Origin: Pleomorphomonas sp. T1.2MG-36
GTDB lineage: Bacteria; Pseudomonadota; Alphaproteobacteria; Rhizobiales; Pleomorphomonadaceae
Reading direction: 5' to 3'
Length of the DNA stretch: 64,000 nt
NCBI RefSeq assembly: GCF_950100655.1
Contig: NZ_CATNLY010000001.1
Location: 248,001-312,000 of the forward strand
The notes under the pieces were generated by a model. That model was not told where the DNA came from and searched no databases. It worked only from the letters and a program-made list of their open reading frames with translations. Made by a program: the position numbers and the translations under genes. Numbering within the stretch: position 1 is the first letter of the stretch; every line of letters starts with the position of its first letter. Below are positions 23,730-50,841 of the stretch, piece by piece.

Positions 23730-24156
23730 TGGTCCGCTTTTTTGTGCGGCGCGTCGCAGCCTTGCGTCGCGGCAAATCCTTGCCTCCGGAGGTCGGCTCA
23801 GGGGCGGATCGAGCCGGCGATGAAATCAATCAATGGTTGTGATCGCAGTAGATGTCCGGATGCGAGGAAGACTTGCACCAGTTCGGCACACTTGTTGGGT
23901 AAATGATCACCAGAACGCTTCCGCGAGCGCCCTCCGGCCCGAATGTCGTAAACGCCGGCTCAACGCCCTAAGCATTTTTAACGAGGACATCAAAGAACGC
24001 AAACATCGTGTTAACGCCAGCTATGCTGGCAGAAGAAGCTGAAATAACATCTGGTTTAATAGCTTTTTACTTTCAATTTTATCTTTCAAACCACAAGCTT
24101 CGCGCAAGGGTGGCGGTGTTTCCTGCAAGCAATGACAGTGCTTCAGGAGATCAGCG
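23730..24156. other. Gene-free region upstream of flgE
   Basis: This 427-base stretch shows no convincing gene. The half nearest flgE is clearly more AT-rich than its surroundings (poly-T/A runs around 24055-24090), which fits a promoter region. A short hairpin, GCCAGC-TAT-GCTGGC, lies near 24016-24030. The shared flagellar element at 24096-24108 is listed separately. Confidence 0.6.
24096..24108 (+). promoter_or_regulatory. Shared flagellar upstream element (flgE copy)
   Basis: AGCTTCGCGCAAG, 48 bases before the flgE start. The identical 13-mer precedes the flagellin gene, and close variants precede motA, fliF, flgB and the DUF1217 gene. Confidence 0.65.
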
Positions 24157-25452
24157 ATGAGTCTTTACGGTGTCTTGCGCAGCGGCGTTTCCGGAATGAA
24201 CGCCCAGGGCAGCCGGTTGGCCACCACCGCCGACAATATCGCCAATGCCAATACCGTCGGCTACAAGCGCGCCTCCACCGAGTTCTCGTCGATGGTCATC
24301 GGCAATAGCCGCTCGGGCGCCTACCAGCCGGCCGGCGTCACCACCCAGACACGCTATGCCATCGGCGAGGCGGGATCCTATCTGTCGACCACCAGCGGCC
24401 TGGACCTTTCGGTGACCGGTTCCGGCTTCTTCGTCGTGCAGGATGCCGGTGGCACGCCGTATCTGACGAGAGCCGGTTCCTTCGTGGAGCAGACCGACGG
24501 CACATTGAAGAATGCCGGCGGGTTCACCCTGCTCGGTTACGATCTGTCGGCCGGCACGCCCTCCCCCTCGGCCAACAGCCTGACGGGACTGGTTCCGGTC
24601 AACATCAACGCCCTGGGAATGACGGCCTCGCCGACGACCAGTGGCTACATCACCGCCACGCTCAACTCCAATGCGACCGACGTCACGGCCACCGCGCCCC
24701 CGGGGGCGCCGGCCAGCGCCAATACCGCAGCTTCCGTCTACACCAACAAGACGTCGCTGACGACCTATGACAACCTCGGCAACGAGGTGATGCTGGACGT
24801 CTACTTCACCAAGACCGGTTCCAACGAGTGGGAGTATGCGGTGTTCGACCGCGCCGGAGCCACTGCCGGCGGCTTCCCCTACGCCGCAACCGGCACCCCG
24901 GCCGCCGGTCCGCTTCTCGCCTCTGGCACCCTCACCTTCGACGCCACCAACGGCAAGCTCACGACACCTGCGATCGCCTCCTTCTCCGTGCCGAACAATG
25001 GCTCATCGCAGACGATGACGCTGGATCTATCCGCCATGACCCAGCTCGGAACCCAGGAGTTCAACCCGACCGGCGACACCGACGGCAACGCGGCCCAGGC
25101 GGTCGACAGCATCGAGATCAGCGACAAGGGTATCGTCTACGCCATCTTTGGCGACGGCACCCGCAAGGCCACCTTCCAGATCCCGCTCGCCAACGTGCCG
25201 AGCCCGGACAATCTGACGCCCGTCGCCGGCAACGCCTACTCGATCTCCATGGACTCGGGCGATCCCAGCGTCGGCTTCGCCGGCTCGTCGAGCTTCGGCG
25301 TCATCAAGTCCGGCTCGCTGGAGCAGTCCAATGCCGACATGGCGAGCGAGCTCACGGCCATGATCGAAGCACAACGCGGCTACACGGCCAATTCCAAGGT
25401 TTTCCAGACCGGCTCCGACCTGCTCGACGTGCTCGTCAACCTGAAGCGCTGA
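24157..25452 (+). CDS. flgE: Flagellar hook protein FlgE
   Basis: Hook subunit of 431 aa. The N-terminal rod motif is MSLYGVLRSGVSGMNAQGSR with ATTADNIANANTVGYKR. The central hook domains contain DLSVTGSGFFVVQD and YLTRAGSF. The C-terminus has the FlgE ending SNADMASELTAMIEAQRGY, with SKVFQTGSDLLDVLVNLKR. Length and ends match hook proteins of Rhizobiales. It starts the first long flagellar transcription unit, with AGGAGATC as ribosome-binding site, an AT-rich upstream region and the shared 13-bp element. It is exported by the flagellar type III apparatus and polymerises outside the cell. Confidence 0.95.
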   Translation: MSLYGVLRSGVSGMNAQGSRLATTADNIANANTVGYKRASTEFSSMVIGNSRSGAYQPAGVTTQTRYAIGEAGSYLSTTSGLDLSVTGSGFFVVQDAGGTPYLTRAGSFVEQTDGTLKNAGGFTLLGYDLSAGTPSPSANSLTGLVPVNINALGMTASPTTSGYITATLNSNATDVTATAPPGAPASANTAASVYTNKTSLTTYDNLGNEVMLDVYFTKTGSNEWEYAVFDRAGATAGGFPYAATGTPAAGPLLASGTLTFDATNGKLTTPAIASFSVPNNGSSQTMTLDLSAMTQLGTQEFNPTGDTDGNAAQAVDSIEISDKGIVYAIFGDGTRKATFQIPLANVPSPDNLTPVAGNAYSISMDSGDPSVGFAGSSSFGVIKSGSLEQSNADMASELTAMIEAQRGYTANSKVFQTGSDLLDVLVNLKR

Positions 25453-25478
25453 CCTCAAACCACTGGTGGATCCCTCCA

Positions 25479-26924
25479 ATGTCCCTCTCGATGGCCCTCA
25501 ACGTCGCCAATTCCTCTCTGCAGACCTCCGGCGTGCAGACGGCGACGACGTCGCGCAACATCGCCGGCGGCAGGGAGGATTCCTACTCGCGCAAGACGGC
25601 GACCGTCATCACCGGCATCGGCGGAACGGTCCAGGTGGTGTCCATCCAGCGCGCCACCGATACGGCCCTCTACAAGACCATGCTGAAGGCCACGTCGGCC
25701 TCGGCCACGCAGGACGCGTTGCTCGACGGTCTCACCAAGCTGTCCCAGACCATCGGCGATCCCGAGCTCGACCAGAGCCCGGCGGCCAAGCTTGGCGATC
25801 TCAATGACAAGCTGCAGCAATACGCCGCCAACCCCAGCAACACCATCCTCGCCCAGGCCGTGCTGAGTTCGGCCGCCACGCTGACGACCACGCTCAACCA
25901 GGCGACAACGACGGTGCAGGCCACCCGGGCGCTCGCTGACGCCGACATGGGCACGTCGGTGCAACGCATCAACGACCTTCTCGCCAAGATAGACACGCTC
26001 AACACCAGCATCGTTCATGGCACCGTGTCGGGCGCCGACATCACCGACAGCCTGGACAGCCGCGACAACCTGATCTCCCAGCTCTCCGAGGAAATCGGCA
26101 TTTCCGTCGTGACGCGCGACAACAACGACGTCGCCATTTACACCGACGGCGGCGTCGCGCTGTTCGAGACCCATCCACGCGAGGTCACGTTCCAGGCGAC
26201 CAACATTTTCAACGCTTCCACCGTGGGCAACGCCGTCTACGTCGACGGTGTGGCCGTGGTCGGCGGCCCATCATCGATGCCCAGCAGCACCGGCCGCCTC
26301 GCCGGCCTTGCCACCCTGCGCGACGAAGTGGGCACCACCTATCAGAACCAGCTCGACGAGATCGCCCGCGGCTTGATCGAAGCCTTCACGGAAAGCGACC
26401 CATCCGGCACCGGGCCGGACGTCCCCGGACTGTTCACATGGCCGGCGGGAACCATACCGGCCGGCGCCACCATCGAGACAGGCCTCGCCGGTGTTATCAA
26501 GGTCAACTCGGCCGTCGACCCGTCGACTGGCGGTAGCCTCGACCTCATCCGCGACGGCATCACCTACGACTACAACACGACCAACGAGGCCGGCTTCACC
26601 GAGCGGCTGAACACCCTGGTCACCGAACTCGGCGAAGCGCGTGTCTTCGACCCCAACTCCGGTGCCGATCCCACCAACACGCTGGCCGACTACGCTGCCT
26701 CTTCGGCGAGCTGGCTCGAGTTCAACCGACAGCAGGTCGATACCGCATCGACCTACCAGTCGACCATGCTGCAGCGCGCCTCCCAAGCGCTGTCCAACAC
26801 CACCGGCGTCAACCTCGACGACGAGTTGTCGAAGCAGCTCGAAATCGAGCGCACCTTCGCGGCGTCCGCCAAGCTCATCGCTGCGGTCGACAAAATGCTT
26901 CAAGACCTGCTCAACGCCGTCTGA
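25479..26924 (+). CDS. flgK: Hook-filament junction protein FlgK
   Basis: Hook-associated protein 1 of 481 aa. The N-terminus (MALNVANSSLQTSGVQTATT) and the C-terminal coiled region (SNTTGVNLDDELSKQLEIER, ending in KMLQDLLNAV) are typical of FlgK and form the D0 domain. ATG 25479 gives the family N-terminus and lies 26 bases after flgE. In the N-terminal motif the usual N-I-A-N-A is N-I-A-G-G, a small departure. It joins hook and filament together with FlgL encoded next. Confidence 0.92.
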   Translation: MSLSMALNVANSSLQTSGVQTATTSRNIAGGREDSYSRKTATVITGIGGTVQVVSIQRATDTALYKTMLKATSASATQDALLDGLTKLSQTIGDPELDQSPAAKLGDLNDKLQQYAANPSNTILAQAVLSSAATLTTTLNQATTTVQATRALADADMGTSVQRINDLLAKIDTLNTSIVHGTVSGADITDSLDSRDNLISQLSEEIGISVVTRDNNDVAIYTDGGVALFETHPREVTFQATNIFNASTVGNAVYVDGVAVVGGPSSMPSSTGRLAGLATLRDEVGTTYQNQLDEIARGLIEAFTESDPSGTGPDVPGLFTWPAGTIPAGATIETGLAGVIKVNSAVDPSTGGSLDLIRDGITYDYNTTNEAGFTERLNTLVTELGEARVFDPNSGADPTNTLADYAASSASWLEFNRQQVDTASTYQSTMLQRASQALSNTTGVNLDDELSKQLEIERTFAASAKLIAAVDKMLQDLLNAV

Positions 26925-26938
26925 GAGAGGAGTGAGAC

Positions 26939-27994
26939 ATGAAAACCACCTACATCTCGACCCAGGCGGCGTCCACGGCGTCCCGCCTTTCCATCCTGAA
27001 GATGCAGACCGAGCTTGCCAAGAACACCAAGGAGTTGAGCTCCGGTCGGTGGGCCGATGTCGGCCTCGAACTTGGCAACAAGACGGGGCGCACCATTTCT
27101 CTGCGCCAGGACTACCAGAGGCTCGATGCGATCCGCGACACTAACGGACTGGTCGCCTCCCGTCTCGATACCAGCCAGGCGGCGCTCGATGGCGTACTGA
27201 AGAACGCTCAGGACTTCGCGGCCTCGCTGATCGCGGTCCGCTCCGGCAAGGTCGGAGCCGAAGTGATCGCCGACGACGCCAAGAACAATCTGCAATCGCT
27301 GATCGCCTCGCTCAACACATCGATCAATGGCGAGTATCTGTTTGCCGGCATCAACACCGACGTTCGTCCGGTTGCCGACTATTACGCAACGCCGACCTCG
27401 ACGACAAAGGCGGCCTTCGACAGCGAGCTCGCCAGCTACTGCACCAGCGTCGGAGCCGCGACGCCGGGCGACCTTTCGGCCAGCGATCTTGAGGCGTTCA
27501 TCGACGTCAACCTCGCCGGCCTGTTCGACGCCGCGAGCTGGTCCGATCCGGCGACCGGCTGGTCGTCGGCCTCGAGCCAGAACGTCAAGAGCCGCATTTC
27601 GACCTCCGAACTGATCGAAACCTCGGCCAACGCCAACGACGCGGCCTTCCGCAAGCTGGCCATGGCCTACACGATGATCAGCGAACTCGCCGACTCCGGC
27701 CTGTCCGAGAAGGCCTATCAGACCCTGATCGACAAGACCGCGCAGATCGTCGGCGACGCCACCGTGGACGTCACCGTCGTCAAGGCCCGCCTGGGCACCG
27801 CCCAGGAACGGCTCAGCAATGCCAACGGCCGCATCAAGGCGCAGATGGATATCCTCAACCGCAACATCAACAATTTCGAGCAGGTCGATCCCATGGAGGC
27901 TCAGACGCGCATATCCGCGCTGGAGACCCAGCTCGACATGGCGTTTGCCCTGACCAGCCGCATGCAGCAGCTCAGCCTGCTCAACTATCTCTGA
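26939..27994 (+). CDS. flgL: Hook-filament junction protein FlgL
   Basis: Hook-associated protein 3 of 351 aa with flagellin-like ends. The N-terminal segment SILKMQTELAKNTKELSSGR is the heptad region found in flagellins and FlgL, and the C-terminus NNFEQVDPMEAQTRISALE and MQQLSLLNYL is typical. It follows flgK by 14 bases with GAGAGGAG as ribosome-binding site. It is secreted and completes the junction on which flagellin assembles. Confidence 0.92.
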   Translation: MKTTYISTQAASTASRLSILKMQTELAKNTKELSSGRWADVGLELGNKTGRTISLRQDYQRLDAIRDTNGLVASRLDTSQAALDGVLKNAQDFAASLIAVRSGKVGAEVIADDAKNNLQSLIASLNTSINGEYLFAGINTDVRPVADYYATPTSTTKAAFDSELASYCTSVGAATPGDLSASDLEAFIDVNLAGLFDAASWSDPATGWSSASSQNVKSRISTSELIETSANANDAAFRKLAMAYTMISELADSGLSEKAYQTLIDKTAQIVGDATVDVTVVKARLGTAQERLSNANGRIKAQMDILNRNINNFEQVDPMEAQTRISALETQLDMAFALTSRMQQLSLLNYL

Positions 27995-28046
27995 CCCATC
28001 CGGTTCGCCGGGGTCGCTCGTCCCACGTCAACCCGCAGGGTGTTTC

Positions 28047-28394
28047 ATGCATCAGTTTTCCTACGCCGACATCGTCGGCGATGCCGTCAACCTCGCGCGC
28101 CAGCACGAGGCCGAGGCCATGGACCATGCCGTCGAACTGCTCCAACGGGCCAAGGCCAAGGGCAGCCGCTCGCGGGAGGCCACCGACGCCATCCTCTATC
28201 TCCGTCGCCTCTGGAGCTATCTCATCGAAGATCTCGCCAGTCCCGACAACGATCTGCCGGACAGGCTGCGCGCCGATCTCATCTCGATCGGTCTGTGGAT
28301 CATCAAGGAAGCGGAACAGATCCGCCGCAACGAGTCCGAGAACTTCGACGGGCTGATCGAGATCAACGGCATCATCCGGGCGGGTCTCGCATGA
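28047..28394 (+). CDS. flaF: Flagellar biosynthesis regulator FlaF
   Basis: Small cytoplasmic protein of 115 aa. The sequence RAKAKGSRSREATDAILYLR with LWSYLIEDLA and ISIGLWIIKEAE matches FlaF of alphaproteobacteria, which is needed for flagellin synthesis or export and opposes FlbT. It overlaps flbT by four bases (ATGA), so the two antagonistic regulators are translationally coupled. Confidence 0.92.
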   Translation: MHQFSYADIVGDAVNLARQHEAEAMDHAVELLQRAKAKGSRSREATDAILYLRRLWSYLIEDLASPDNDLPDRLRADLISIGLWIIKEAEQIRRNESENFDGLIEINGIIRAGLA

Positions 28395-28798
28395 GCAGCC
28401 GTTCCATGCACATCGGTCTTCGCGCCCGTGAGCGCCTCTACATCAACGGCGCGGTGATCCGCGTCGACCGCAAGGTCTCCATCGAACTCCTGAACGACGT
28501 GAGCTTCCTTCTCGAAGCCCACGTCATGCAGCCCGAAGAGACGACGACGCCGCTGCGCCAGCTCTACTTCGCGGTTCAGATGATCATGATCGACGGAGCC
28601 GACAACCGCAGCGCCCGCTCTATCGCCGCCGGCCTGATCGCCTCGCTCGACCGGACGCTGATCAACCCTGACATCCGCACCGGCCTGCGGGCCGTGGAGG
28701 CTCAACTCGCCGCCGAACGCCCCTTCGACGCCCTCAAAACCATCCGCTCGCTGTTTCCGGTCGAGGCCGGCGTGCTGGGCGGGCTCATCGCCGCCTGA
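28391..28798 (+). CDS. flbT: Flagellin translation regulator FlbT
   Basis: Protein of 135 aa matching FlbT. The core GLRARERLYINGAVIRVDRK and the C-terminal FDALKTIRSLFPVE are characteristic. In Caulobacter and Brucella FlbT binds flagellin mRNA near its 5' leader and alters its stability or translation. The single flagellin gene at 49728 has a leader long enough for such control. FlbT/FlaF replace FliS in this group, and no fliS is present here. Confidence 0.93.
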   Translation: MSSRSMHIGLRARERLYINGAVIRVDRKVSIELLNDVSFLLEAHVMQPEETTTPLRQLYFAVQMIMIDGADNRSARSIAAGLIASLDRTLINPDIRTGLRAVEAQLAAERPFDALKTIRSLFPVEAGVLGGLIAA

Positions 28799-28812
28799 CC
28801 GGGAGACGCACC

Positions 28813-29214
28813 ATGCAAGTCAACACCGCAAACAGCCAGAACTCGGGATCGCCTTCGACCTCGAAAACGTCCGGTTCGGGCGGCTCCCTCGACTATGACT
28901 CCTTCCTGAAGCTGTTCATGGCCGAGATGAAGAACCAGGACCCGACGGCTCCCACCAGTTCGACCGAATACATCGCGCAGTTCGCCACCTTCTCGCAGGT
29001 CGAGCAGTCGATGCAGACGAACACCAAGCTCGATGGTCTCCTGTCCTCGCTCGCGCTGTCGCAGGCCGACGGCATCATCGGCCGCACCTTGACCTCGGAG
29101 GACGGCAGCGTTTCCGGCAAGGTCACCGCGGTCCGCATCGTCAACGGCGGCGCGCTCGCCGATCTCGACTCCGGCAAGTCGGTGGTGCTCGGCCCCGGCG
29201 TGATCATCACCTGA
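28813..29214 (+). CDS. flgD: Hook assembly scaffold FlgD (short form)
   Basis: Hook-capping protein of 133 aa. It has the FlgD N-terminal core: YDSFLKLFMAEMKNQDPTAP, then TEYIAQFATFSQVEQS, and a short beta region (GRTLTSEDGSVSGKVTAV). It lacks the C-terminal Ig/tudor domains of enteric FlgD, as is common in Rhizobiales. It caps the growing hook and leaves on completion. Its stop overlaps the fliQ start (TGATG). Confidence 0.92.
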   Translation: MQVNTANSQNSGSPSTSKTSGSGGSLDYDSFLKLFMAEMKNQDPTAPTSSTEYIAQFATFSQVEQSMQTNTKLDGLLSSLALSQADGIIGRTLTSEDGSVSGKVTAVRIVNGGALADLDSGKSVVLGPGVIIT

Positions 29215-29480
29215 TGAACGAGTTCGACGCTCTCGACCTGGTTCGCGATGCCATCTGGACCATCATCATCGGCTCAGGACCGGCCGTCCTCGCCGCCATG
29301 ACGGTGGGCGTGGTCATCGCGCTTCTTCAGGCGCTGACGCAGGTGCAGGAAATAACGCTGACCTTCATTCCGAAGATCGTCGCCATCCTGCTGACCATCG
29401 TCGCCACCGGCCCGTTCATCGGCGCCCAGATCTACGCTTTCACGGAAATCGTCTACGGCCGGATCGAGAGCGGGTTCTAG
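29214..29480 (+). CDS. fliQ: Flagellar export gate protein FliQ
   Basis: Inner-membrane protein of 88 aa with two hydrophobic helices (about 17-37 and 54-72) and the family motif VIALLQALTQVQEITLTFIPK between them. With FliP and FliR it forms the core of the type III export gate. It sits directly between flgD and flhA, and fliR follows flhA; fliP is 19 kb away in the same cluster. Confidence 0.94.
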   Translation: MNEFDALDLVRDAIWTIIIGSGPAVLAAMTVGVVIALLQALTQVQEITLTFIPKIVAILLTIVATGPFIGAQIYAFTEIVYGRIESGF

Positions 29481-29558
29481 CGATAAGGCAACGGGGCCGA
29501 TGCCCCGTGCCTTCTATCGGTCTTGCCTTGATCCCGGATGCATTCAGGAGCGCACCGC

Positions 29559-32401: not shown

Positions 32402-32811
32402 CCGCACCCGCCAGGAAACGCCTCGATGCCATGCGCCGCATCGCCGAGCTTCGCCGGCAGCTCAAGCAGATCGAGGAGCTGCGCCTTGCCCGCGTGATGC
32501 GAGAGGAGGCCGAGATCGACGAGAAATGCGTCGCGCTGATCGCCACGCTCAACGACGATACGCCTCTGCACGGTCTGTTCGCCGGTCATATGGCCGGCCG
32601 CCTCAAGCGTCTCACCGAGCGGCGGACGCTGCTCGAACCGCTGAAGGCGCAACAGATCGCCGCGGTGATGACCGAGGCCCGCCATACGCGCTTCGCCGAG
32701 ACGATGATCGGTCGGCTGGAGACTGGCGTCGCGGCCGAGGAGGAGAAGCGCCAGCTCGAAAGCCTCGTCGAAGGCGCGCTTGCCCGGCGCAATCACGCCA
32801 GCCTCGCTTAA
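32398..32811 (+). CDS. Small charged coiled-coil protein, possibly FliJ-like
   Basis: Soluble protein of 137 aa rich in Arg, Glu and Leu, predicted by eye to be largely helical and coiled-coil (RLDAMRRIAELRRQLKQIEE at the start and MIGRLETGVAAEEEKRQLES near the end). It overlaps fliR by four bases. Small coiled-coil proteins here could act like FliJ, the export ATPase stalk or chaperone-escort protein, and no other FliJ is visible in the cluster. There is no clear sequence match, so this is inferred from size, composition and position. Confidence 0.7.
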   Translation: MTAPARKRLDAMRRIAELRRQLKQIEELRLARVMREEAEIDEKCVALIATLNDDTPLHGLFAGHMAGRLKRLTERRTLLEPLKAQQIAAVMTEARHTRFAETMIGRLETGVAAEEEKRQLESLVEGALARRNHASLA

Positions 32812-32855
32812 GCTCGGCCGGCTAATTTGTTTCGCAACGTTTCCGGAGGACGCTG

Positions 32856-33437
32856 ATGGCCATCTCTCCCCCGTCGGATATCATTCTCGACGTCGCCCGC
32901 GCCGCCGACCCAGAGCGGCTCAAGGTCGCCACCGCCAAGCTTGATCGGTTGGCGGAGACTGCCAGCACGGCCTTCGCCAGCCTGTTGCCAGCCGCATCCG
33001 ATGCGGGCAACGCCCTTGTCGGGCTGGCGAGCGCCACGACCGCGATCGATCCCGCTCCCTCGGCGCCGTTCGACCTTCATCGCGCCCGCCTGCGTCTCCA
33101 GAACGAAACGGCCATGACCGCCGGTATGGACCGAACAGCCGCTGCCGTCGGCGATCGCCGAGCCAAGACGCTGGAGAGCTTCGAGGCGATGGTGCTGAGC
33201 ACCTTCATCGGTTCGATGCTGCCGGAAGGCGCTGAGGATGTCTATGGCTCCGGCACCGCCGGCGACGTCTGGAAATCCATGTTGTCCGACCAGCTCGGTC
33301 GGCAGATGGCCAGGGCCGGTGGCATCGGCATCGCCGACCGCCTCGCCGCCGGACATGTCGCCAACCTCGAGCCTGCCTCGGCCGGCCCCTCGCCGCTCCG
33401 TCTCGCCGCCCTTCTCTCAACCGTCCCACGTATCTGA
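32856..33437 (+). CDS. flgJ: Rod-binding protein, FlgJ N-terminal type
   Basis: Protein of 193 aa. The region FEAMVLSTFIGSMLPEGAED with GSGTAGDVWKSMLSDQLGRQ and MARAGGIGIADRL (residues about 109-168) is the FlgJ rod-binding domain. The muramidase half of enteric FlgJ is absent; a separate lytic transglycosylase gene at 57010 probably supplies the wall-cutting activity. The first 100 residues are low in recognisable features. It is expected to cap or scaffold the rod in the periplasm, though no signal peptide is visible, which fits export through the type III apparatus. Confidence 0.85.
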   Translation: MAISPPSDIILDVARAADPERLKVATAKLDRLAETASTAFASLLPAASDAGNALVGLASATTAIDPAPSAPFDLHRARLRLQNETAMTAGMDRTAAAVGDRRAKTLESFEAMVLSTFIGSMLPEGAEDVYGSGTAGDVWKSMLSDQLGRQMARAGGIGIADRLAAGHVANLEPASAGPSPLRLAALLSTVPRI

Positions 33438-33464
33438 CGTCCGACCCCATTTCGGAGTTTCCTG

Positions 33465-36529: not shown

Positions 36530-36532
36530 GGT

Positions 36533-37657
36533 TCAACGGCCTCCAAGCTTCAGCCCTTGCAGGCTCATCAATGTATCGGCGCTCATCACCGCGCTGCTCT
36601 GGCCCCTGATCAGCGTGGCGACGGAGGTCGTCGCCGTGGCGCTGGGGTTGGCGGCCTCCCACATGGCGGTAAAGCGGGTGATGAACTTCTTGAGGTCCTC
36701 GGGCTTCGAAAGACTTTCGATATCGATCCGGCTTTCGATGTACTTCGCCTGGACGTCGATATCGGCGTTGCCGGTCTGGGACGACAGCCCGAGCACCGTT
36801 TGCGCCACCTTGAGCAGAGCGGGATCGGCAAGAATGCTGTAGGCCGAGGTGATGGTCGGCACTTTGCGCTCGAAGTAGAGGGCAAGGCGCACCCCCTCGT
36901 TCTCCTTGCCGGCCTGAGTTTCGATCGTCTGTCGAAGATAGCTCGAGATCGTGCTCTCCACCTGCCCGCTCGTCTGGACCCGGACGGTCCCGTCCGCTGA
37001 AAAGTTGAAGGCGGCGGCGAAATCCCGCCATGCCGACTTGGTCTGGCGGGCGGCGAAGCTGTCGGCATCGTTGGGATCTGAGGTGAGGATGCGCCGGAGA
37101 AACGACTTGGCACTGGCCCCTGTGCCAGGCGGTTCGACGCCGAACGCCGTCGTGGCGTAACCAACGAGACTGTCATCGGCCAGGAAGTCGTCCACCGTCT
37201 TCACGGCCGGCAGGGACTGCTCGTAGGCGAGCGTGCCGAACTTGATCAGCGATTCAGAATCGCCCTGCTCCGCAGCCTTCTCGGCATATCTCGTCTTGAT
37301 GTCGGACAGCGCATCCGGGCTTTGCGCCGACGGGTTCAGGAAGGAAAAGGCCTTGGCAAACTCCTGGTAGCGCTTGTCGACCAGCTTGTTGGCAAAGCTC
37401 TTGGAGTCGGTGAGGTCGCTCTCCAGAACCTTGCGCATGAACGCCTTGGCATACGTCATGTCCTCAAGGCCAAAGGCCTTCATGGCGTATGAGTAGAGAC
37501 GGTGATCGTCGAAGAACTCCTCAAGGCTGGTCACCTTGCCGATATTCTCGCGGTAATATTCGGATGCCCGCTTGACGTCCGGCTGCGCCGCCGTGCGCTT
37601 CAGCGTCGCCGACATGTCGCGCGTGATCATCTGGTAGCTCAGCGGTGCCGACAGCAT
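36533..37657 (-). CDS. DUF1217 flagellar protein with three tandem repeats
   Basis: Protein of 374 aa conserved in Rhizobiales flagellar clusters between flgF and motA. Three repeats of about 75-80 residues are visible at about 33-107, 139-221 and 258-335; each has a [T/A]S-x-E/D-D/A-F/I-L/F-A/D-D start, an A-x-x-A/V-F/L-G middle and a KxF...R-I-L region. There is no signal peptide or membrane span. ATG 37657 follows AGGAGAGAGG; longer in-frame starts give an unlikely extension. The function is not known to me; its position suggests assembly or export of rod or hook parts. Confidence 0.8.
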   Translation of the reverse strand: MLSAPLSYQMITRDMSATLKRTAAQPDVKRASEYYRENIGKVTSLEEFFDDHRLYSYAMKAFGLEDMTYAKAFMRKVLESDLTDSKSFANKLVDKRYQEFAKAFSFLNPSAQSPDALSDIKTRYAEKAAEQGDSESLIKFGTLAYEQSLPAVKTVDDFLADDSLVGYATTAFGVEPPGTGASAKSFLRRILTSDPNDADSFAARQTKSAWRDFAAAFNFSADGTVRVQTSGQVESTISSYLRQTIETQAGKENEGVRLALYFERKVPTITSAYSILADPALLKVAQTVLGLSSQTGNADIDVQAKYIESRIDIESLSKPEDLKKFITRFTAMWEAANPSATATTSVATLIRGQSSAVMSADTLMSLQGLKLGGR

Positions 37658-37698
37658 GACCTCTCTCCTTATCTTGCCTTGAGGAATGCCCGCCGAAC

Positions 37699-37711
37699 CT
37701 TGCTCGTGGCT
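37699..37711 (-). promoter_or_regulatory. Shared flagellar upstream element (DUF1217 copy)
   Basis: On the minus strand AGCCACGAGCAAG, two to three bases away from the other copies, 41 bases before the DUF1217 start. It lies back-to-back with the motA copy 16 bases away. Confidence 0.45.
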
Positions 37712-37727
37712 GGCGAGAGCGTCCCCA

Positions 37728-37740
37728 AGCCTCGCACAAG
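37728..37740 (+). promoter_or_regulatory. Shared flagellar upstream element (motA copy)
   Basis: AGCCTCGCACAAG, two mismatches from the flgE/flagellin version, ending 49 bases before the motA start. This is almost the same distance as at flgE. Confidence 0.6.
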
Positions 37741-37789
37741 CCTCGCCGCCTAGACCGGGCGGCAGGCAACCACGAGAAGGAGCAGGGAC

Positions 37790-40409: not shown

Positions 40410-40426
40410 ACAGCGGACGGGAGATC

Positions 40427-41458: not shown

Positions 41459-41466
41459 GGTGCGTC

Positions 41467-42995: not shown

Positions 42996-43020
42996 TCGTT
43001 CGAGGCCGGTCGACGAGGCC

Positions 43021-43033
43021 AGCCTCGGGCAAG
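43021..43033 (+). promoter_or_regulatory. Shared flagellar upstream element (flgB copy)
   Basis: AGCCTCGGGCAAG, 43 bases before the TTG start of flgB, in the gap between the flhB-coupled gene and flgB. Confidence 0.55.
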
Positions 43034-43076
43034 ATTTCGCCCCCATGATCCCTCTCGAACATTCGGAGGGATCGTC

Positions 43077-43457: not shown

Positions 43458-43460
43458 CCG

Positions 43461-44212: not shown

Positions 44213-44222
44213 GGAGCCAGAG

Positions 44223-45011
44223 ATGAAAGCGCTCGCCATCGCCGCCACCGGCATGACCGCCCAACAGCTCAACGTCGAGGTCATCGCCCACAACATCGCC
44301 AACATCAACACGACCGCCTTCAAGCGTTCGCGTGCCGAGTTCACCGACCTGCTGTACCAGACCCAGCGCATGCAGGGCGTGCCCAACCAGGGCGGTCAGT
44401 CGGTCATTCCCGAAGGGGTTCGGCAAGGGCTCGGCGTCCGCGCCGCCGCCATCCGCAACCTGCATCTGCAGGGCGGCCTGACCCTGACCGGCAACACCTA
44501 CGACATGGCGATCGACGGTCGCGGTTGGTTCCAGGTCGACGGGCCGAACGGCGAAACGCTCTATACCCGAGCCGGGGCCTTCAACAAGAATGCCGACGGC
44601 CAGCTCGTGACGCTGGACGGCTACGCGGTGCAGCCGGCGATCATCGTGCCGACGGACGCCACCGACCTGACGGTCAACGAATCCGGCGAGATCTTCGCCA
44701 CCGTTCCCGGACAGGCGGCGCCGCAGTCGCTCGGCCAACTCTCGCTCGCCAACTTCACCAACGACGTCGGCCTCGAACCGATCGGCGGCAACCTTTACCG
44801 CGAAACGCTCGCCTCGGGCACACCGGTAGCCGGCATCCCCACCGACCCGGGCTTCGGCAAGATCCGCCAGAAGTATCTCGAAGCCTCCAACGTCGATCCC
44901 GTCTCCGAGATCACCGAGCTCATCTCGGCCCAGCGCGCCTACGAGATGAACTCCAAGGTCATCCAGGCGGCCGACTCCATGGCCGGCACCATCTCAAACG
45001 GGCTGCGCTGA
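44223..45011 (+). CDS. flgG: Distal rod protein FlgG
   Basis: Distal rod protein of 262 aa, the normal length. The N-terminus [20 protein letters not shown] with [15 protein letters not shown], the internal [20 protein letters not shown], and the C-terminus [20 protein letters not shown] are diagnostic. GAGGAG precedes the start. It is the main drive-shaft subunit and is followed by the P- and L-ring genes. Confidence 0.95.
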
Positions 45012-45030
45012 CGCCGGAAAGGCCGTTGCC

Positions 45031-45501
45031 ATGAAACGCCTGCTGCTCATTGCCGCCCTTGCCTTCCTGGCTACCGGCCTCCTCGCGCTCCGGCCGGCCG
45101 ACGCCCAGATGGTGTCGACGCTGCCGGTGCCCGGCATCACAATCTATCCCGGCGATCCGATCACCGATGACATGCTGACCGAACGCCGCTTCCGCCTGAC
45201 GCGGGCGTCCCTCGAAGCTGTCGTCGCCGGTCGCGAAATGCTGGTCGGCAAGGTGGCACGGCGCACCCTGCTTCCAGGGCAACCGATTACCGTCAACGCG
45301 GTCGAGAGCGCCAAGTTGGTACGGCGCGGCGTCCCGGTACGTCTCGTGTTCGTCGAAGGCGGACTGACCATCATCACCTACGCCGAGCCGATGCAGTCGG
45401 GCAGCGTCGGCGAGGTGATCCGCGTGCGCAACACCGAGTCCGGCACCGTCATCGTCGGCGTCGTCCAGGCCGATGGCAGTATCGTCGTAGGAAAGAGCTG
45501 A
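45031..45501 (+). CDS. flgA: P-ring chaperone FlgA (short form)
   Basis: Periplasmic protein of 156 aa with a signal peptide (LLLIAALAFLATGLLALRPADA). The SAF domain follows: MLTERRFRLTRASLEAVVAG, then GKVARRTLLPGQPITVNAV, and the C-terminal GEVIRVRNTESGTVIVG. It is shorter than enteric FlgA (about 220 aa) and lacks the N-terminal wing, as in related bacteria. It helps FlgI polymerise into the P ring. Its stop overlaps the flgI start by one base. Confidence 0.93.
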   Translation: MKRLLLIAALAFLATGLLALRPADAQMVSTLPVPGITIYPGDPITDDMLTERRFRLTRASLEAVVAGREMLVGKVARRTLLPGQPITVNAVESAKLVRRGVPVRLVFVEGGLTIITYAEPMQSGSVGEVIRVRNTESGTVIVGVVQADGSIVVGKS

Positions 45502-46838
45502 TGCGCGTCCTTATCGCCGGCCTCGTCGCCGGTCTCGTTGCCTTCCAGCCAGCCGCCGCCCAGGACGGTTCGCGGATGCCGATCACCCTCAACCCGCAGA
45601 CCGGCGAGGTGATGAGCGTCGTCGACGGGCCCCTGCCCTTCGCCGGCCAGGACGGTCCGACGCTTCTGGCCGCCGACATGGCGCCGAACTCGCCTCTGCC
45701 GCCCCCGCCCACCGTCACCTCCGTGGTGCCGCGAACCGGACCGGAACCCAAGGCGCCGAGCACGCCGGACACCATGGTCCATTCCTTGGCGCCGGGGGAC
45801 GTGCGCATCAAGGACATCGCCGCGATCGAAGGTGTCCGCGAGAACCAGCTCGTCGGCTACGGCCTCGTCGTCGGTCTCCAGGGCACCGGTGACACGTTGC
45901 GCAACGCCGCCTTTTCCGAGCAGTCGCTTCAGTCGATGCTGGAGCGCCTCGGCGTCAACGTCCGCGACAGCGCGCTTCGGACACGCAACATCGCCGCGGT
46001 GATCGCCACTGCGGAACTGCCCGCCTTTGCCGGTGCCGGCTCGCGCATCGACGTCAATGTCGCTTCACTTGGCGATGCCAGCTCGCTGCAGGGCGGCACC
46101 CTGATCATCACCCAGTTGGCCGGCGCCGATGGCGAGGTCTATGCCGTGGCGCAAGGGCCGATCGCCGTCACCGGCTACAGCGCCGCCGGCATGGCCGAGA
46201 GCGTCCAGAAGGGTACGCCGACGGCCGGGCGCATTCCGAACGGGGCGCTTATCGAGCGCGAGCTGCAGACAAATCTCGACGGGCTCGGCGCATTGACCTT
46301 CAAACTGCGTAACCCCGATTTCCGCACCGCCATCCGCATCACCGACGCCATCAACAGCTACAGCCGCCGCCGCTACGGTGCCGCGGTCGCCGAGGAGCGC
46401 GACTATCGCACCGTGGCACTGATCAAGCCTCGCGGCATGTCGGCGGCTCGCTTCATCGCCGAGATCGAGGGACTGCCGGTGCGGCCGGATTCGCCGGCTC
46501 GCGTCGTCATCGACGAGCGCTCGGGAACGGTGGTGATGGGCGCCGACGTCCGCATATCGACCGTCGCCATCACTCATGGCAACCTCAGCATCCGTGTCTC
46601 CGAGGCGCCGGTCGCCTCCCAGCCGGCACCGTTCTCGAACGGCGAAACGGTGGTGCTGCCCCGCACCATGGTCGATGCCAGCGAAAGCGGCGGCAACCTC
46701 GCCATCATCGGCGGGACCGACCTTCAGACCCTGGTTCGCGGCCTCAACCAGATCGGCCTCAAGCCGACCGGCGTCATCGCCATCGTCCAGGCCATGAAGA
46801 CCGCCGGCGCGCTCCAGGCCGATCTCGTGGTGCAATGA
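45501..46838 (+). CDS. flgI: Flagellar P-ring protein FlgI
   Basis: P-ring subunit of 445 aa, longer than usual because of about 90 residues after the signal peptide (VLIAGLVAGLVAFQPAAA) that are rich in Pro and Thr. The conserved body starts at VRIKDIAAIEGVRENQLVGY and contains TPTAGRIPNGALIERE-type and NPDFRTAIRITDAIN segments. The C-terminus LVRGLNQIGLKPTGVIAIVQ is diagnostic. The extra N-terminal segment is unusual compared with enteric FlgI (about 365 aa). Confidence 0.94.
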   Translation: MRVLIAGLVAGLVAFQPAAAQDGSRMPITLNPQTGEVMSVVDGPLPFAGQDGPTLLAADMAPNSPLPPPPTVTSVVPRTGPEPKAPSTPDTMVHSLAPGDVRIKDIAAIEGVRENQLVGYGLVVGLQGTGDTLRNAAFSEQSLQSMLERLGVNVRDSALRTRNIAAVIATAELPAFAGAGSRIDVNVASLGDASSLQGGTLIITQLAGADGEVYAVAQGPIAVTGYSAAGMAESVQKGTPTAGRIPNGALIERELQTNLDGLGALTFKLRNPDFRTAIRITDAINSYSRRRYGAAVAEERDYRTVALIKPRGMSAARFIAEIEGLPVRPDSPARVVIDERSGTVVMGADVRISTVAITHGNLSIRVSEAPVASQPAPFSNGETVVLPRTMVDASESGGNLAIIGGTDLQTLVRGLNQIGLKPTGVIAIVQAMKTAGALQADLVVQ

Positions 46839-46925
46839 ATCATGTCCCTGCACGGGATCAGCCCCGCGCAAGTCTGCGGTGCGATCCTTCTCGGCATGAG
46901 TTCAACGACTGAAGAGGTTTTCGGC

Positions 46926-47492
46926 ATGACGTCGATCCGACGGCGCCTTCCGGTTCGCCTGCTCGCGACCGTCGTGGCGGTTCTGTTTTGCCCGATCCTG
47001 ACGCAGGCGGCGGAAACGGAAGCGAAGACGGTGTCGCCGGTCGAAACCGCCGCCACCAGTCACTCCGGCCTCGAAATGCGGGCACTGACCGAAGAGGCGC
47101 GCCAATATTGCGTCAACATTCGCGACGTCGCCGCCGATGCCCGTTACGCCTGGCAGAAGTCGACGTTGGAAGAGCTCGACAAGCGCGTGGAGGAACGGAT
47201 CGCCGCGCTCGAGGAAAAGCGCGCCGAATACGAGAGCTGGCTCAAGAAGCGCGAGGATTTCCTCGCCGCTGCCCGCGACGACATCGTGGCCATCTACGCC
47301 AAGATGCGGCCCGAAGCCGCAGCCGGCCAGCTCACCGCCCTCGATGACGAGATGGCGGCCGCAGTGCTGGCACGGCTCAACGCGCGCGCGTCCAGCGCCA
47401 TTCTCAACGAAATGGACCCTGCCCGCGCCTCTCAGCTCGCCAGCACGCTCGCCGGCATGACCGAACTGTCCGCAAAAGGAGAAACTCCTTGA
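46926..47492 (+). CDS. motE: MotE-like periplasmic protein
   Basis: Protein of 188 aa with a signal peptide (LLATVVAVLFCPILTQAA), a coiled coil (LEELDKRVEERIAALEEKRA) and a C-terminal helical pair (IYAKMRPEAAAGQLTALDDE, ARLNARASSAILNEMDPARA) of the MgtE-N/MotE type. In Sinorhizobium MotE is a periplasmic chaperone for the stator-associated MotC, which is encoded here at 54655. ATG 46926 is chosen because it gives a normal signal peptide; the upstream ATG 46842 adds 28 unlikely residues. It overlaps flgH by four bases. Confidence 0.85.
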   Translation: MTSIRRRLPVRLLATVVAVLFCPILTQAAETEAKTVSPVETAATSHSGLEMRALTEEARQYCVNIRDVAADARYAWQKSTLEELDKRVEERIAALEEKRAEYESWLKKREDFLAAARDDIVAIYAKMRPEAAAGQLTALDDEMAAAVLARLNARASSAILNEMDPARASQLASTLAGMTELSAKGETP

Positions 47493-48172
47493 GGCACGCC
47501 CTGCTTCTCATCGCCGGCTTCGCCCTCGTCGGCTGCAACACGTCCAACGATCTCAACACCGAACCGGCTATGTCGCAGGTTGGCGCGGCGCTGCCCCTCA
47601 ATGCGCTCACCCCCGCGCCCACCATGTTCCGGGATCCCAACTCCACCTACGTCCACGGTGGCGAGGGACTGTTCCGGGATTCCCGTGCCCGTCAGGTCGG
47701 CGACGTCCTCACCGTTCTGATCCAGATGAACGACAAGGCCGCTCTCGACAACTCGTCGGAACGCTCCCGCGTTTCCACTGCCGGGTTCGGTGCCGGTTTC
47801 GGTTTCTCGGTTGCCGGCGAAGGGTCGGACGCCAGCCTCGACGGCAGCGTCAATTCCTCCTCGCGCTCGAAGGGCGCAGGCGCCGTCGAGCGCTCCGAGG
47901 CGATCAAGGTCACCTTGGCGGCGGTCGTCACCAGCGTTCTGCCCAATGGAAATCTGATCATCTCCGGTTCGCAGGAAATGCGCGTCAACTACGAGATGAG
48001 GGTGGTCAACATCCAGGGCATCGTTCGCCAGCGCGACATTTCCGGCACCAACGTCGTGCCCTACGAGAAGATCGCCGAGGCGCGCATTTCCTACGGCGGT
48101 CGCGGCCGATTGACCGAGGTGCAGCAGCCCGGCGTGCTGCACCAGATTTACGATCGCGTGGCTCCATTCTGA
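47489..48172 (+). CDS. flgH: Flagellar L-ring lipoprotein FlgH
   Basis: Outer-membrane L-ring subunit of 227 aa. A lipoprotein signal peptide ends in the lipobox LVGC (Cys at about 16). The body has LFRDSRARQVGDVLTVLIQM, SNGNLIISGSQE-type and VRQRDISGTNVVPYEKIAEA segments typical of FlgH. It starts with TTG 47489, eight bases after AAAGGAG, overlapping the motE stop. Confidence 0.94.
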   Translation: MRHALLLIAGFALVGCNTSNDLNTEPAMSQVGAALPLNALTPAPTMFRDPNSTYVHGGEGLFRDSRARQVGDVLTVLIQMNDKAALDNSSERSRVSTAGFGAGFGFSVAGEGSDASLDGSVNSSSRSKGAGAVERSEAIKVTLAAVVTSVLPNGNLIISGSQEMRVNYEMRVVNIQGIVRQRDISGTNVVPYEKIAEARISYGGRGRLTEVQQPGVLHQIYDRVAPF

Positions 48173-48180
48173 GAGGCAGC

Positions 48181-48705
48181 ATGGCCAAGCTCCCGCTTCC
48201 AGCCGCCCGCGAGGCGACGCCCACCGAGGCCGACACGGAGATGCGCCGGTCGCCGCTGCCCGAACGCGGGGGCGTGCTGAAGCCGGCGTTCTTCCTCACG
48301 GTCCTGGCGGTCGCCGCCGGCCTCGGCCTCGGCGTCCATCTCGTCCGCTATGCGCAGATCGCCGACGCTGGCCAGCAGCAGGACGCCGCCGCCGGTGGCG
48401 AGCACGATCCCCTGACGTCGCGGCTCTATCGCCTGAAGCCGATCGTGACCAATCTGACGGAGCCCGCCGATGTCTGGCTGCGTCTCGACGCCGCGATCGT
48501 CTTCGAAGACGAGATGCCCAACTCCGAAATCGTCTCGGCTGAAATATCCGAAGACCTGCTTGCCTTCCTGAAGACGTTGAAGGTCGGGCAGCTCGAGGGC
48601 GCCACCCAGCTCCAGCACCTCCGCGAAGACCTCCGGGACCGGGTCGCCATCCGTTCGGGCGGCGACGTACGCGATCTCATCATCGAAAGTCTGGTCGTCC
48701 AGTGA
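48181..48705 (+). CDS. fliL: Flagellar stator-associated protein FliL
   Basis: Single-span inner-membrane protein of 174 aa. A 38-residue cytoplasmic N-terminus is followed by the span (AFFLTVLAVAAGLGLGVHLV, about 39-58) and a periplasmic SPFH-like domain with YRLKPIVTNLTEPADVWLRL and the C-terminal LREDLRDRVAIRSGGDVRDL. FliL supports stator function around MotAB. It overlaps fliP by four bases (GTGA). Confidence 0.93.
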   Translation: MAKLPLPAAREATPTEADTEMRRSPLPERGGVLKPAFFLTVLAVAAGLGLGVHLVRYAQIADAGQQQDAAAGGEHDPLTSRLYRLKPIVTNLTEPADVWLRLDAAIVFEDEMPNSEIVSAEISEDLLAFLKTLKVGQLEGATQLQHLREDLRDRVAIRSGGDVRDLIIESLVVQ

Positions 48706-49460
48706 AAAAAATCCTGCTCGCCATCCTGTTGTTGGCTGCCATGGGCACGCCGGCCCTCGCGCAGATTCCCGGTCTTGGCGGCAGCATCCCCGATCTCGGC
48801 TCGCTGATCCCCGCCGGCGAAGGATCGGCCTCCGGCCGCATCGTCCAACTGGTGGCACTCCTGACGGTGCTGTCGGTGGCGCCTGGCCTGCTGATCATGG
48901 TGACGAGCTTCACGCGCATCGTCGTGGCCTTGTCCTTCCTGCGGTCCGGAATCGGCCTGCAGACGACGCCGGCCAATCTCATCCTGATCAGTCTGGCGCT
49001 GTTCATGACCTTCTACGTCATGGCGCCAACCTTCGACCGGGCCTGGAACGATGGCGTGTTGCCGTTGACCCGCAATGAAATCTCCGAGGAAGTGGCCTTC
49101 GAGAAGATCTCCGATCCGTTCCGGGACTTCATGGCCCAGCGCGTCCGCGACAAGGACCTGAAGCTGTTCGACGATCTCGCCGCCGAACATCTCGGCATCA
49201 AGACCGAGAGCGGAGCGACGCCGCTGCGTGTCCTCATACCGGCCTTCATGATCTCGGAACTGCGGCGCGGCTTCGAGATCGGCTTCCTGATCGCACTGCC
49301 CTTCCTGGTCATCGACATGATCGTGGCGACGCTCACCATGTCCATGGGCATGATGATGCTGCCCCCGACCGTGCTGTCGCTGCCCTTCAAGGTATTGTTC
49401 TTCGTGCTGATCGACGGCTGGAACATGCTGGTCGGCGGCCTGGTGCGCTCGTTCTTCTAG
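48702..49460 (+). CDS. fliP: Flagellar export gate protein FliP
   Basis: Export gate protein of 252 aa with a cleavable-type N-terminus (ILLAILLLAAMGTPALA) and four spans. The family motifs LLIMVTSFTRIVVALSFLRS and the C-terminal LPFLVIDMIVATLTMSMGMM with PPTVLSLPFKVLFFVLIDGW are unmistakable. It starts at GTG 48702 and closes the flgB unit. No fliO is visible beside it. Confidence 0.95.
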   Translation: MKKILLAILLLAAMGTPALAQIPGLGGSIPDLGSLIPAGEGSASGRIVQLVALLTVLSVAPGLLIMVTSFTRIVVALSFLRSGIGLQTTPANLILISLALFMTFYVMAPTFDRAWNDGVLPLTRNEISEEVAFEKISDPFRDFMAQRVRDKDLKLFDDLAAEHLGIKTESGATPLRVLIPAFMISELRRGFEIGFLIALPFLVIDMIVATLTMSMGMMMLPPTVLSLPFKVLFFVLIDGWNMLVGGLVRSFF

Positions 49461-49479
49461 CCACCACTCAATACTGCCT

Positions 49480-49515
49480 GCAAAAGCCCGCTTCCTCATC
49501 GGAGCGGGCTTTTGC
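49480..49515 (+). terminator. Rho-independent terminator after fliP
   Basis: GCAAAAGCCCGCTTCC (49480-49495) pairs with GGAGCGGGCTTTTGC (49501-49515) with one bulge. It lies 20 bases after the fliP stop and isolates the flagellin gene from the upstream unit. Confidence 0.82.
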
Positions 49516-49576
49516 ATGTCCTCTTGCCGAAGATCGGCCCGCAAAATCGAGCTTTTGGGAGCCTTCTTGGCAGGTC

Positions 49577-49589
49577 AGCTTCGCGCAAG
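49577..49589 (+). promoter_or_regulatory. Shared flagellar upstream element (flagellin copy)
   Basis: AGCTTCGCGCAAG, identical over 13 bases to the flgE copy and 138 bases before the flagellin start. The longer distance leaves room for a structured leader. Confidence 0.65.
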
Positions 49590-49618
49590 CCTCGTCTGAC
49601 AAGGTAAGGCCATGGCAG

Positions 49619-49638
49619 GTTGGATCGCTCAGCCAACG
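49619..49638 (+). other. Small stem-loop in the probable flagellin leader
   Basis: GTTGG (49619-49623) and CCAAC (49634-49638) can pair around a ten-base loop, about 90 bases before the start codon. It could be part of a leader recognised by FlbT, but a five-pair stem is weak evidence. Confidence 0.3.
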
Positions 49639-49727
49639 AGGAGGATCCAAGGGCATGATGCCGCTCCTGCCATCCCGGTGAAAATCCGGAATGTCCCATC
49701 TCACTCATCCAAAAGGGACATACGAAA

Positions 49728-50738
49728 ATGGCCAGCCTTCTGACCAACGCCGCGGCAATGACCGCCCTCCAGACCCTCGCGTCCACCAACAAGTCGCTCG
49801 ACACGACGCAGAACCGCATTTCGACGGGCATGCGCATCTCGACGGCTTCCGACGGTGCCGCCTACTGGTCGATCGCCACCACCATGCGCTCCGACAACAA
49901 GTCGCTGTCCGCCGTGCAGGACAGCCTTGGTCTCGGCGCCGCCACGGTGGACGTGCAGTACACCGCCCTCGAAGCGACCGTCAAAGAGCTCACCGAGATC
50001 GGCAAGCTGCTCGTCAGTGCCAAGACCCCGGGTGTCAACCGCGGCCAGATCCAGGAAGACATCAAGGCCCGTCTCGGCCAGATGAGCTCCATCGCCTCGT
50101 CGTCGGTGTTCAATAGCGAGAACTGGCTGTCGATCGACTCCGCCGCCGGTGACTTCAACAAGGACAAGTCGGTCGTCGCCTCCTTCTCGCGCGTCGGCGA
50201 CGCGATCTCGATCGAGACGATCAAGGTCGACGTGAACGAGATCAAGCTCTACGACGCCAACACCGCTGCGGCGCTTCCGACGCCGGCCACCGCGCCGACG
50301 GCTGCAGCCCCCGGTGCCGTCAAGATGGACGGTCGCGGCCTGTTCGACGCCAGTTGGCAGGTCTGGAACGACAATCTCGCCACGCCGGGCGTCGTTTCCC
50401 TGTCGATCAAGGATCTCGATATTTCGTCCCTGACCGACTCCGCCGACCATCAGGCGACACTGTCGTCCTACATCGAGATCGTCGATGCCGCCCTCAGCAA
50501 GCTGACCGACGGCGCCTCGAACCTCGGTGCCGTCAAGAACCGCATCGACACGCAGAAGGACTTCGTCCAGGCGCTGACCGATGCCATCGGCCGCGGTATC
50601 GGCCAGCTCGTCGATGCCGACATGAACGCCGAGTCGACCCGCCTCCAGGCCCTGCAGACCCAGCAGCAGCTCGGCATTCAGGCGCTGTCGATCGCCAACT
50701 CCAACAGCCAGAACATCCTGTCGCTGTTCCGCGGCTGA
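49728..50738 (+). CDS. Flagellin
   Basis: Filament subunit of 336 aa. The N-terminal D0/D1 region (MASLLTNAAAMTALQTLAST, LDTTQNRISTGMRISTASDG) and the C-terminal D0/D1 region (QALTDAIGRGIGQLVDADMN, QQLGIQALSIANSNSQNILS) are Rhizobiales-type. The short variable middle contains an Ala/Pro/Thr stretch (about residues 182-202). It is the only flagellin gene in the window, whereas relatives often carry several. It has its own upstream element, leader and terminator, and is probably subject to FlbT/FlaF control. Confidence 0.95.
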   Translation: MASLLTNAAAMTALQTLASTNKSLDTTQNRISTGMRISTASDGAAYWSIATTMRSDNKSLSAVQDSLGLGAATVDVQYTALEATVKELTEIGKLLVSAKTPGVNRGQIQEDIKARLGQMSSIASSSVFNSENWLSIDSAAGDFNKDKSVVASFSRVGDAISIETIKVDVNEIKLYDANTAAALPTPATAPTAAAPGAVKMDGRGLFDASWQVWNDNLATPGVVSLSIKDLDISSLTDSADHQATLSSYIEIVDAALSKLTDGASNLGAVKNRIDTQKDFVQALTDAIGRGIGQLVDADMNAESTRLQALQTQQQLGIQALSIANSNSQNILSLFRG

Positions 50739-50770
50739 GCGAACACCACCCGCTCGAAGCCGTATGGAAG

Positions 50771-50797
50771 CCACGCCCTCCGGGGCGTGGTTTTTTT
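50771..50797 (+). terminator. Rho-independent terminator of the flagellin gene
   Basis: CCACGCCC / GGGCGTGG stem with a TCCG loop, followed directly by seven T. It lies 32 bases after the stop codon and is the most canonical terminator in the window. Confidence 0.93.
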
Positions 50798-50828
50798 CTT
50801 GGCGGCGGTGCCCGCCTCGCTGGCGGCA

Positions 50829-50841
50829 ATGCTCGCACAAG
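50829..50841 (+). promoter_or_regulatory. Shared flagellar upstream element (fliF copy)
   Basis: ATGCTCGCACAAG; its last ten bases are identical to the motA copy. It ends 87 bases before fliF and lies just after the flagellin terminator. Confidence 0.55.

Follow-up and report, generated by a model that had tools for sequence, protein, structure and literature searches.

A conserved tandem-repeat promoter element before the flagellar operons of Pleomorphomonas, best explained as an FtcR/Rem/LafR site

The 64,000-nucleotide stretch of DNA analysed here (hereafter referred to as the window) comes from the 5.2-Mb genome of Pleomorphomonas sp. T1.2MG-36, contig NZ_CATNLY010000001.1 (G000:C1:248001-312000), and carries a flagellar gene cluster that includes ftcR, a gene for a putative regulator. 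An original prediction had pointed to a 13-bp sequence shared upstream of six flagellar transcription units, and had proposed a site for FtcR or for a flagellar form of RNA polymerase. Is this short element a real signal, and if so, which protein reads it? Rem, FtcR and LafR are established as master regulators of flagella in rhizobia and Brucella and of lateral flagella. We conclude that the 13-mer belongs to a real, conserved operator-promoter, which is best explained as a site for a regulator of this FtcR/Rem/LafR type.

The cluster contains flgE, flgK, flgL, flaF, flbT, flgD, flhA, fliR, a flgJ-like gene, orf38/DUF1217, flgF- and fliI-like genes, motA, fliM, fliN, fliG and flhB, and also flgB, flgC, flgG, flgA, flgI, a motE-like gene, flgH, fliL, fliP, the flagellin gene, fliF, motB, fliK and ftcR. 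In a FliF comparison the nearest relatives were Pleomorphomonas species and metagenome-assembled genomes, at 90-96% identity. A second, more distant FliF, with fliG and flhA homologues nearby, is encoded on contig C52 of the same genome.

The element and its conservation

All six 13-mers were found at the coordinates and on the strands originally given. As claimed, flgE and flagellin have the same 13-mer, and the gaps between the 13-mer end and the start codon run from 41 (DUF1217, ATG at 37657) to 138 nucleotides (flagellin). Identity or near-identity of a 13-mer is in itself no evidence, because the + strand of the window holds 392 identical 13-mer pairs and the number of matches with at most three mismatches in the window, 30, is at the chance level (37.45 expected in shuffles). 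We rejected 13-mer identity as an argument; position and conservation carry the case.

A length of 13 bp proved too short, since the 13-mer is part of a promoter of about 31 bp. With the first base of the 13-mer taken as index 0, two half-sites begin at indices -2 and 9 and form an 11-bp direct repeat, CARGCYTcg-N2-CAAGNYTcg, followed by a weak -10 element (TAnnnT). The self-match at a shift of 11 was 0.48 for eight window sites and 0.46 for 34 hand-picked sites of other genera, and 0.16-0.32 at the other shifts from 3 to 16; the element thus has the 11-bp direct half-site repeat of an OmpR/PhoB-type tandem operator. Among 34 sites of other genera, a near-invariant A at index 24 was kept in 33, with T frequent at indices 23 (19/34) and 28 (21/34), which gives the TAnnnT of the -10 element. 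An inverted-repeat reading reached 0.46 at its best dyad centre over all sites, equal to the shift-11 repeat but over fewer columns; the direct repeat was preferred because it accounts for both half-sites.

A 31-column matrix built from the six reported promoters in Pleomorphomonas sequences gave eight positions in the window with scores of at least 17.6, the next best being 11.0 (the flagellin row of CPCC 101076, misplaced by a simple search, was left out of the matrix). All six sites of the original prediction were real, and two more had been missed. On the + strand, the box and -10 of the flgE operon (24094-24124; 13-mer at 24096-24108) scored 30.0 and were kept in 6/6 aligned genus sequences, the window included. 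The motA-fliM-fliN-fliG-flhB operon has a box with a TAGACC -10 element (37726-37756, + strand; score 31.5; 6/6 genus sequences) and the clearest direct repeat of all, AAGCCTCGCAC and AAGCCTCGCCG. On the minus strand, the box of the orf38/DUF1217-flgF-fliI operon, with its flgF- and fliI-like domains (37683-37713; score 28.8), was likewise found in 6/6 genus sequences. The flgB operon box (43019-43049, + strand) scored 30.5 and was kept in 8/8 aligned genus sequences including the window, and that of the operon running from fliF through motB to fliK (50827-50857, + strand) scored 28.0 and was present in 11/11 rows (ten genus sequences including the window, plus CPCC 101076). The flagellin gene box, with a CAAGGT -10 element (49575-49605, + strand), scored 25.9. 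One of the two newly added boxes lies between flgI and the motE-like gene (46858-46888, + strand; 13-mer start 46860; score 21.7), ahead of a conserved ATG at 46926, and was kept in 9/9 aligned genus sequences including the window. The other, a CTTAAG variant, precedes the flgJ-like gene (32798-32828, + strand; score 17.6); its 13-mer starts at 32800, 56 nucleotides before the ATG at 32856, and its core is identical in 6/6 genus sequences including the window. As far as gene order shows, every flagellar gene set of the cluster except ftcR begins with a box.

Within the genus, the distance from the 13-mer start to the start codon was 61 nucleotides for flgE, 62 for motA, 54 for orf38, 56-57 for flgB, 96-100 for fliF (76 in CPCC 101076) and 150-153 for flagellin. 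Directly upstream of the flgE box we also observed an AT-rich, partly conserved stretch (TTTTACTTTCAATTTTA; window 24040-24095), possibly an UP-like element or a site for a second regulator; none was seen at the other boxes.

The proposal that the element would be enriched before flagellar operons in related genomes was borne out. In 21 sets outside the genus, 48/66 upstream regions of first genes (260 bp each) scored at or above the cut-off of 12, as compared with 0/163 of inner genes, and 500 column-permuted matrices applied to the same first-gene regions gave on average 0.1 and at most 4 of 66. The sets, here and in the next comparison, are not all independent, because several are species of one genus. 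When all non-genus cluster loci except L123 were taken, with only the best-matching flagellin counted per locus, the figures were 62/83 for first genes and 0/197 for inner genes; by gene, flgB had a box in 20/20, fliF in 18/21, motA in 8/9, flgE in 6/10, orf38 in 1/1 and flagellin in 9/22. The clusters of Shinella and Phyllobacterium zundukense have boxes of at least 12 before fliF, flgE, flgB, motA and orf38, and further ones at the head of the motB operon (Shinella) and before flgJ and flhA (P. zundukense, 61 nucleotides before the flgJ-like homologue in the case of flgJ). The upstream regions of 11/11 fliF genes of the distant type scored at most 10.1, and a single match above 12 was found when the surroundings of this FliF were scanned on C52 (about 60 kb) and in a cluster-less relative (40 kb).

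For the genome-wide scoring that had been proposed, a profile (R1) was made from 51 sites outside the genus. Among the candidates scored, it gave 12 matches over the whole 5.2-Mb genome, of which the top five were cluster boxes, those of motA (E 0.0025), flagellin, flgB, motE and flgE (E 0.125), in this order; the fliF box was eleventh. The six matches outside the cluster were rejected as sites; five lie in mechanical open reading frames (ORFs) and one, C52:294052, lies between two likely genes. Missing from the genome-wide list were the flgJ and orf38/DUF1217 boxes, which reached 7.8 and 7.6 bits in a scan of the window.

The degenerate family AGCYTCGSRCAAG was informative when whole genomes were searched: it had 57 matches in the 11 cluster-bearing Pleomorphomonas genomes, at least 40 of them inside the cluster; at most 17 lay outside, as compared with 15 for a reversed control pattern. 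Whether a match belonged to the cluster was judged manually by its contig, coordinates and spacing, and three unassigned matches in G008 were counted as outside. The three cluster-less genomes had 5 matches and 4 control matches. In the host genome, 4/5 matches were reported sites, the fliF and DUF1217 sites falling outside the strict pattern. Additional genome-wide pattern matches were not accepted as sites: 12/16 lay outside the window and 11/12 of these within mechanical ORFs of at least 150 amino acids, although such a position is a weak sign of coding because the DNA is GC-rich.

FtcR and the alternatives

FtcR (57910-58584, + strand) matches Pfam Trans_reg_C at 53.8 bits, which places it among the OmpR-type winged-helix proteins; its receiver domain, apparently degenerate, was unmatched in the Pfam scan. 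Its sequence relatives in the PDB are 1kgs and 2oqr, and it is 59% identical to the Sinorhizobium meliloti response regulator encoded next to flgE. Near the usual phosphoacceptor position, at residues that we take to be aligned with it, FtcR has IEG and the S. meliloti homologue VEA. Rem is described, in the parts of the source available to us, as an aspartate-less response regulator that is active without phosphorylation (PMC9812332).

The FliF type of the window, taken as at least 40% identity along most of the protein, occurs in 19 of 60 genomes. Homologues of FtcR (E below 1e-50) were present in 19/19 of these and in 1/41 genomes without this FliF type; a partial match of 33% in G024 was not counted. 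One FtcR homologue, G035:C5:438159, belongs to a genome in which no FliF was detected. A plasmid of Microvirga lotononidis (L123 20001) has an orphan ftcR-like gene with no recognised flagellar genes within 20 kb, and the best match in 40 kb there was 12.9. The ftcR gene itself has no box. In the window, as the original prediction had it, the top matrix score in 57586-57909 was 0.8 on either strand, and no box was found before ftcR in 15/15 loci (the window and 14 others).

OmpR/PhoB-family regulators bind tandem 11-bp direct repeats over the -35 region. We consider it probable, at about 0.82, that the element is the operator of FtcR, as an orphan OmpR-type activator of the Rem/LafR kind, overlapping the -35 region of a weak sigma-70-type promoter. 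Two FtcR winged-helix domains would sit head to tail on the 11-bp repeat, centred near -33 and -22. The pair would take the place of a proper -35 box and recruit the housekeeping RNA polymerase to the weak -10 element (TAnnnT, with the near-invariant A at -11), and transcription would start 35-36 nucleotides downstream of the 13-mer start. With this arrangement a single regulator would switch on the eight box-carrying operons of the cluster, flagellin included, while ftcR itself would be driven from elsewhere. Observed are the sites, their conservation, period and spacing, and the co-occurrence with ftcR; the identity of the binder, its activating role, the sigma factor, the extent of the operons and the transcription starts are inferred.

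Of the two proposals originally made, the FtcR-type operator is favoured by the 11-bp repeat, the co-occurrence with ftcR, the lack of a match at the recognised genes of the second flagellar locus and the agreement with Rem-activated operons; a flagellar polymerase form is disfavoured. The polymerase proposal, in which a dedicated sigma factor (FliA-like or of the extracytoplasmic function (ECF) class) would use the element as its core promoter and the element would be no activator site, could draw on the near-fixed spacing to the -10-like element and on a gene for an ECF sigma factor with a SnoaL-like C-terminal domain (22437-23309, minus strand) that adjoins flgE. An 11-bp direct repeat is, however, no sigma signature. 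The core type of sigma-28 promoters is TAAA-N15-GCCGATAA, and the relaxed form of this pattern occurred in 0/47 genus upstreams. Part of the ECF gene stands beside flgE in 2/5 other genus stretches and nowhere in the distant clusters compared, its absence from the other three being a weak point because those stretches cover only about 1.1-1.2 kb upstream of flgE. The neighbouring sigma gene is thus unsupported as the driver, and we regard a dedicated sigma factor as very unlikely. A promoter under CtrA control was likewise unsupported: TTAA-N7-TTAA occurred in 0/47 genus upstreams in exact form and in 1/47, a flgE upstream, in relaxed form.

It is unlikely that the repeat is read by some other DNA-binding protein that accompanies the cluster. 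In favour of this reading, FtcR binding is a prediction, and within Pleomorphomonas the box goes together with the cluster as a whole, so that any cluster gene would correlate with it: the window-type FliF cluster is found in 11/14 Pleomorphomonas genomes, and the same three that lack this FliF also lack ftcR. Against this, FtcR homologues are present also where the cluster order differs or where ftcR and fliF are on separate contigs, and among the cluster proteins scanned, which do not include every ORF, no DNA-binding regulator was seen other than the ECF sigma factor. That the similarity reflects chance or the shared ancestry of neighbouring sequence, with no function, is hardly credible. 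The lack of enrichment of three-mismatch matches and the abundance of identical 13-mer pairs would fit such a view, but the inner-gene and permuted-matrix controls, the genome-wide ranking and the conservation across families with unrelated flanks speak against it.

Several results weigh against the FtcR operator, to which the comparisons with Brucella FtcR and the pho box given below must be added. Of the first-gene upstreams outside the genus, 21/83 scored below 12, 13 of these being flagellins. R1 is not fully independent, because its sites were located with the Pleomorphomonas matrix; its genome scan scored 150 of 1874 first-look candidates, and it gave modest E-values (0.0025 at best) with two of the eight sites unlisted. 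Unexplained matches of 13.5-18.5 occurred in Shinella (27012, 14234 and 15102) and in P. zundukense (36483), and S. meliloti has a minus-strand match of 12.5 between flagellin genes. The single match in the control stretches, 17.1, falls within an ORF (about C52:331750) in a region where no flagellar genes were recognised, and the C52 control stretch as a whole holds few of them.

Flagellin control

For the flagellin gene, the -10 element predicts that transcription begins at the A of AUGGCAGG, window position 49612. This position is also the start of a conserved leader and of the closing helix in its predicted fold. Among 21 boxed flagellins, the distance from the 13-mer start to the leader start was 35 nucleotides in 12 (the window among them) and 36 in 7, the leader start not being found in 2, which supports the predicted placement of the start site.

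The leader itself (49612-49727, + strand) is strongly conserved across 26 aligned leaders, including those of box-less S. meliloti flagellins. Besides GGCATGATGCCG and a CCGG hairpin, it contains a stem, UGUCCC/GGGACA, that lies over the likely ribosome-binding site. It had no match in Rfam; the stems vary so little that covariation is slight, and the fold of the single sequence is not unusual (z -1.55). The leader is a candidate target of FlbT. A GGCATGATGCCG...CCGGT core was also seen upstream of a S. meliloti gene with the annotation globin-coupled sensor protein, before che genes (L094, about 2505-2560), which looks as though a leader element were common to flagellin and chemoreceptor mRNAs.

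Outside the genus, 12/31 flagellin genes had a box of at least 12, with 0/4 in S. meliloti and 0/2 in Phyllobacterium; a G053 flagellin, not among the 31, had a box of 28.3. One report (PMC3616915), in its accessible parts, includes flaA, flaC and flaD of S. meliloti among genes with CtrA motifs. The CtrA pattern was found in 0/10 Pleomorphomonas flagellin rows, and its relaxed form in 4/18 flagellin upstreams of other genera. It therefore seems that flagellins are controlled differently in different lineages.

Relation to known regulators

In the literature searched (mostly not in full text), no DNA definition for Rem, FtcR or LafR that fits flagellar promoters was found. The element now provides a defined operator that can be put to the test, together with predicted start sites; the kind of regulator is known, the operator is new. 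It suggests which operons make up the regulon, brings out differences between lineages in how flagellin is controlled and is at odds with the published Brucella motif, TGTGGGCA. We lean, by a narrow balance, towards a broader proposal, in which the class II flagellar promoter ancestral to all Hyphomicrobiales with this type of flagellum consisted of tandem FtcR/Rem/LafR half-sites and a -10 element at fixed spacing. The flagellin gene would have been plugged into it directly in Pleomorphomonas, Microvirga and Xanthobacteraceae, CtrA or another control would serve it in Sinorhizobium, Shinella and Phyllobacterium, and the Brucella motif in print would not be the true operator.

The closest parallel is the Rem regulon of Sinorhizobium and Agrobacterium, with a regulator 59% identical to FtcR and boxes before the same genes. 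S. meliloti CP090106.1 (labelled pSymB, 3.7 Mb) has eight matches of at least 12, among them boxes before fliF, motA, orf38, flgB, flgE and the gene preceding motB, and a seventh in the 3′ end of flhB. This last box has a -10 element, and closely similar sequences occur in Shinella and G041 (L094 15955 -, L122 11452 -, L087 15815 +), which suggests that the gene that follows has an internal promoter there. According to the portions of two sources that we could consult, Rem activates class II genes including fliM and orf38 in S. meliloti (PMC8429497, PMC9812332), and boxes stand before the operons reported as Rem-activated there (orf38, motA-fliM and the structural operons; class list in PMC8429497). 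The regulon differs in that the S. meliloti flagellins (0/4) are without a box, whereas the Pleomorphomonas flagellin has one. A de novo search upstream of 482 S. meliloti transcription starts yielded three motifs, none of which, from the descriptions available, is this element (PMC3616915).

Brucella melitensis FtcR shares its name and family with the regulator studied here, and the available part of the report has it bound upstream of fliF (PMC9456535). The motif given there from chromatin immunoprecipitation sequencing, TGTGGGCA in 118/363 peaks, is however unlike this element, and binding is reported at the promoter of ftcR itself, where the loci tested here have no box. TGTGGGCA was found in 0/66 and 0/47 flagellar upstreams, a set that contains no Brucella DNA. 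Either Brucella FtcR differs or TGTGGGCA reflects something else. Apart from that of PMC9456535, no box for Rem, FtcR or LafR was found in the literature searched. LafR of Bradyrhizobium is described, in the text accessible to us, as homologous to Rem and as the regulator of a second flagellar system, the lateral one (PMC8429497, PMC5996035), and is in this respect alike. No published LafR binding site was found in the same literature.

The pho box and other OmpR/PhoB tandem repeats provide a comparison of architecture. Their half-site sequence differs, and in pho boxes the -10 element is farther from the second half-site than in the flagellar boxes, by about 5 bp or roughly half a helical turn. 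What the two share is the 11-bp period and the pair of half-sites over the -35 region.

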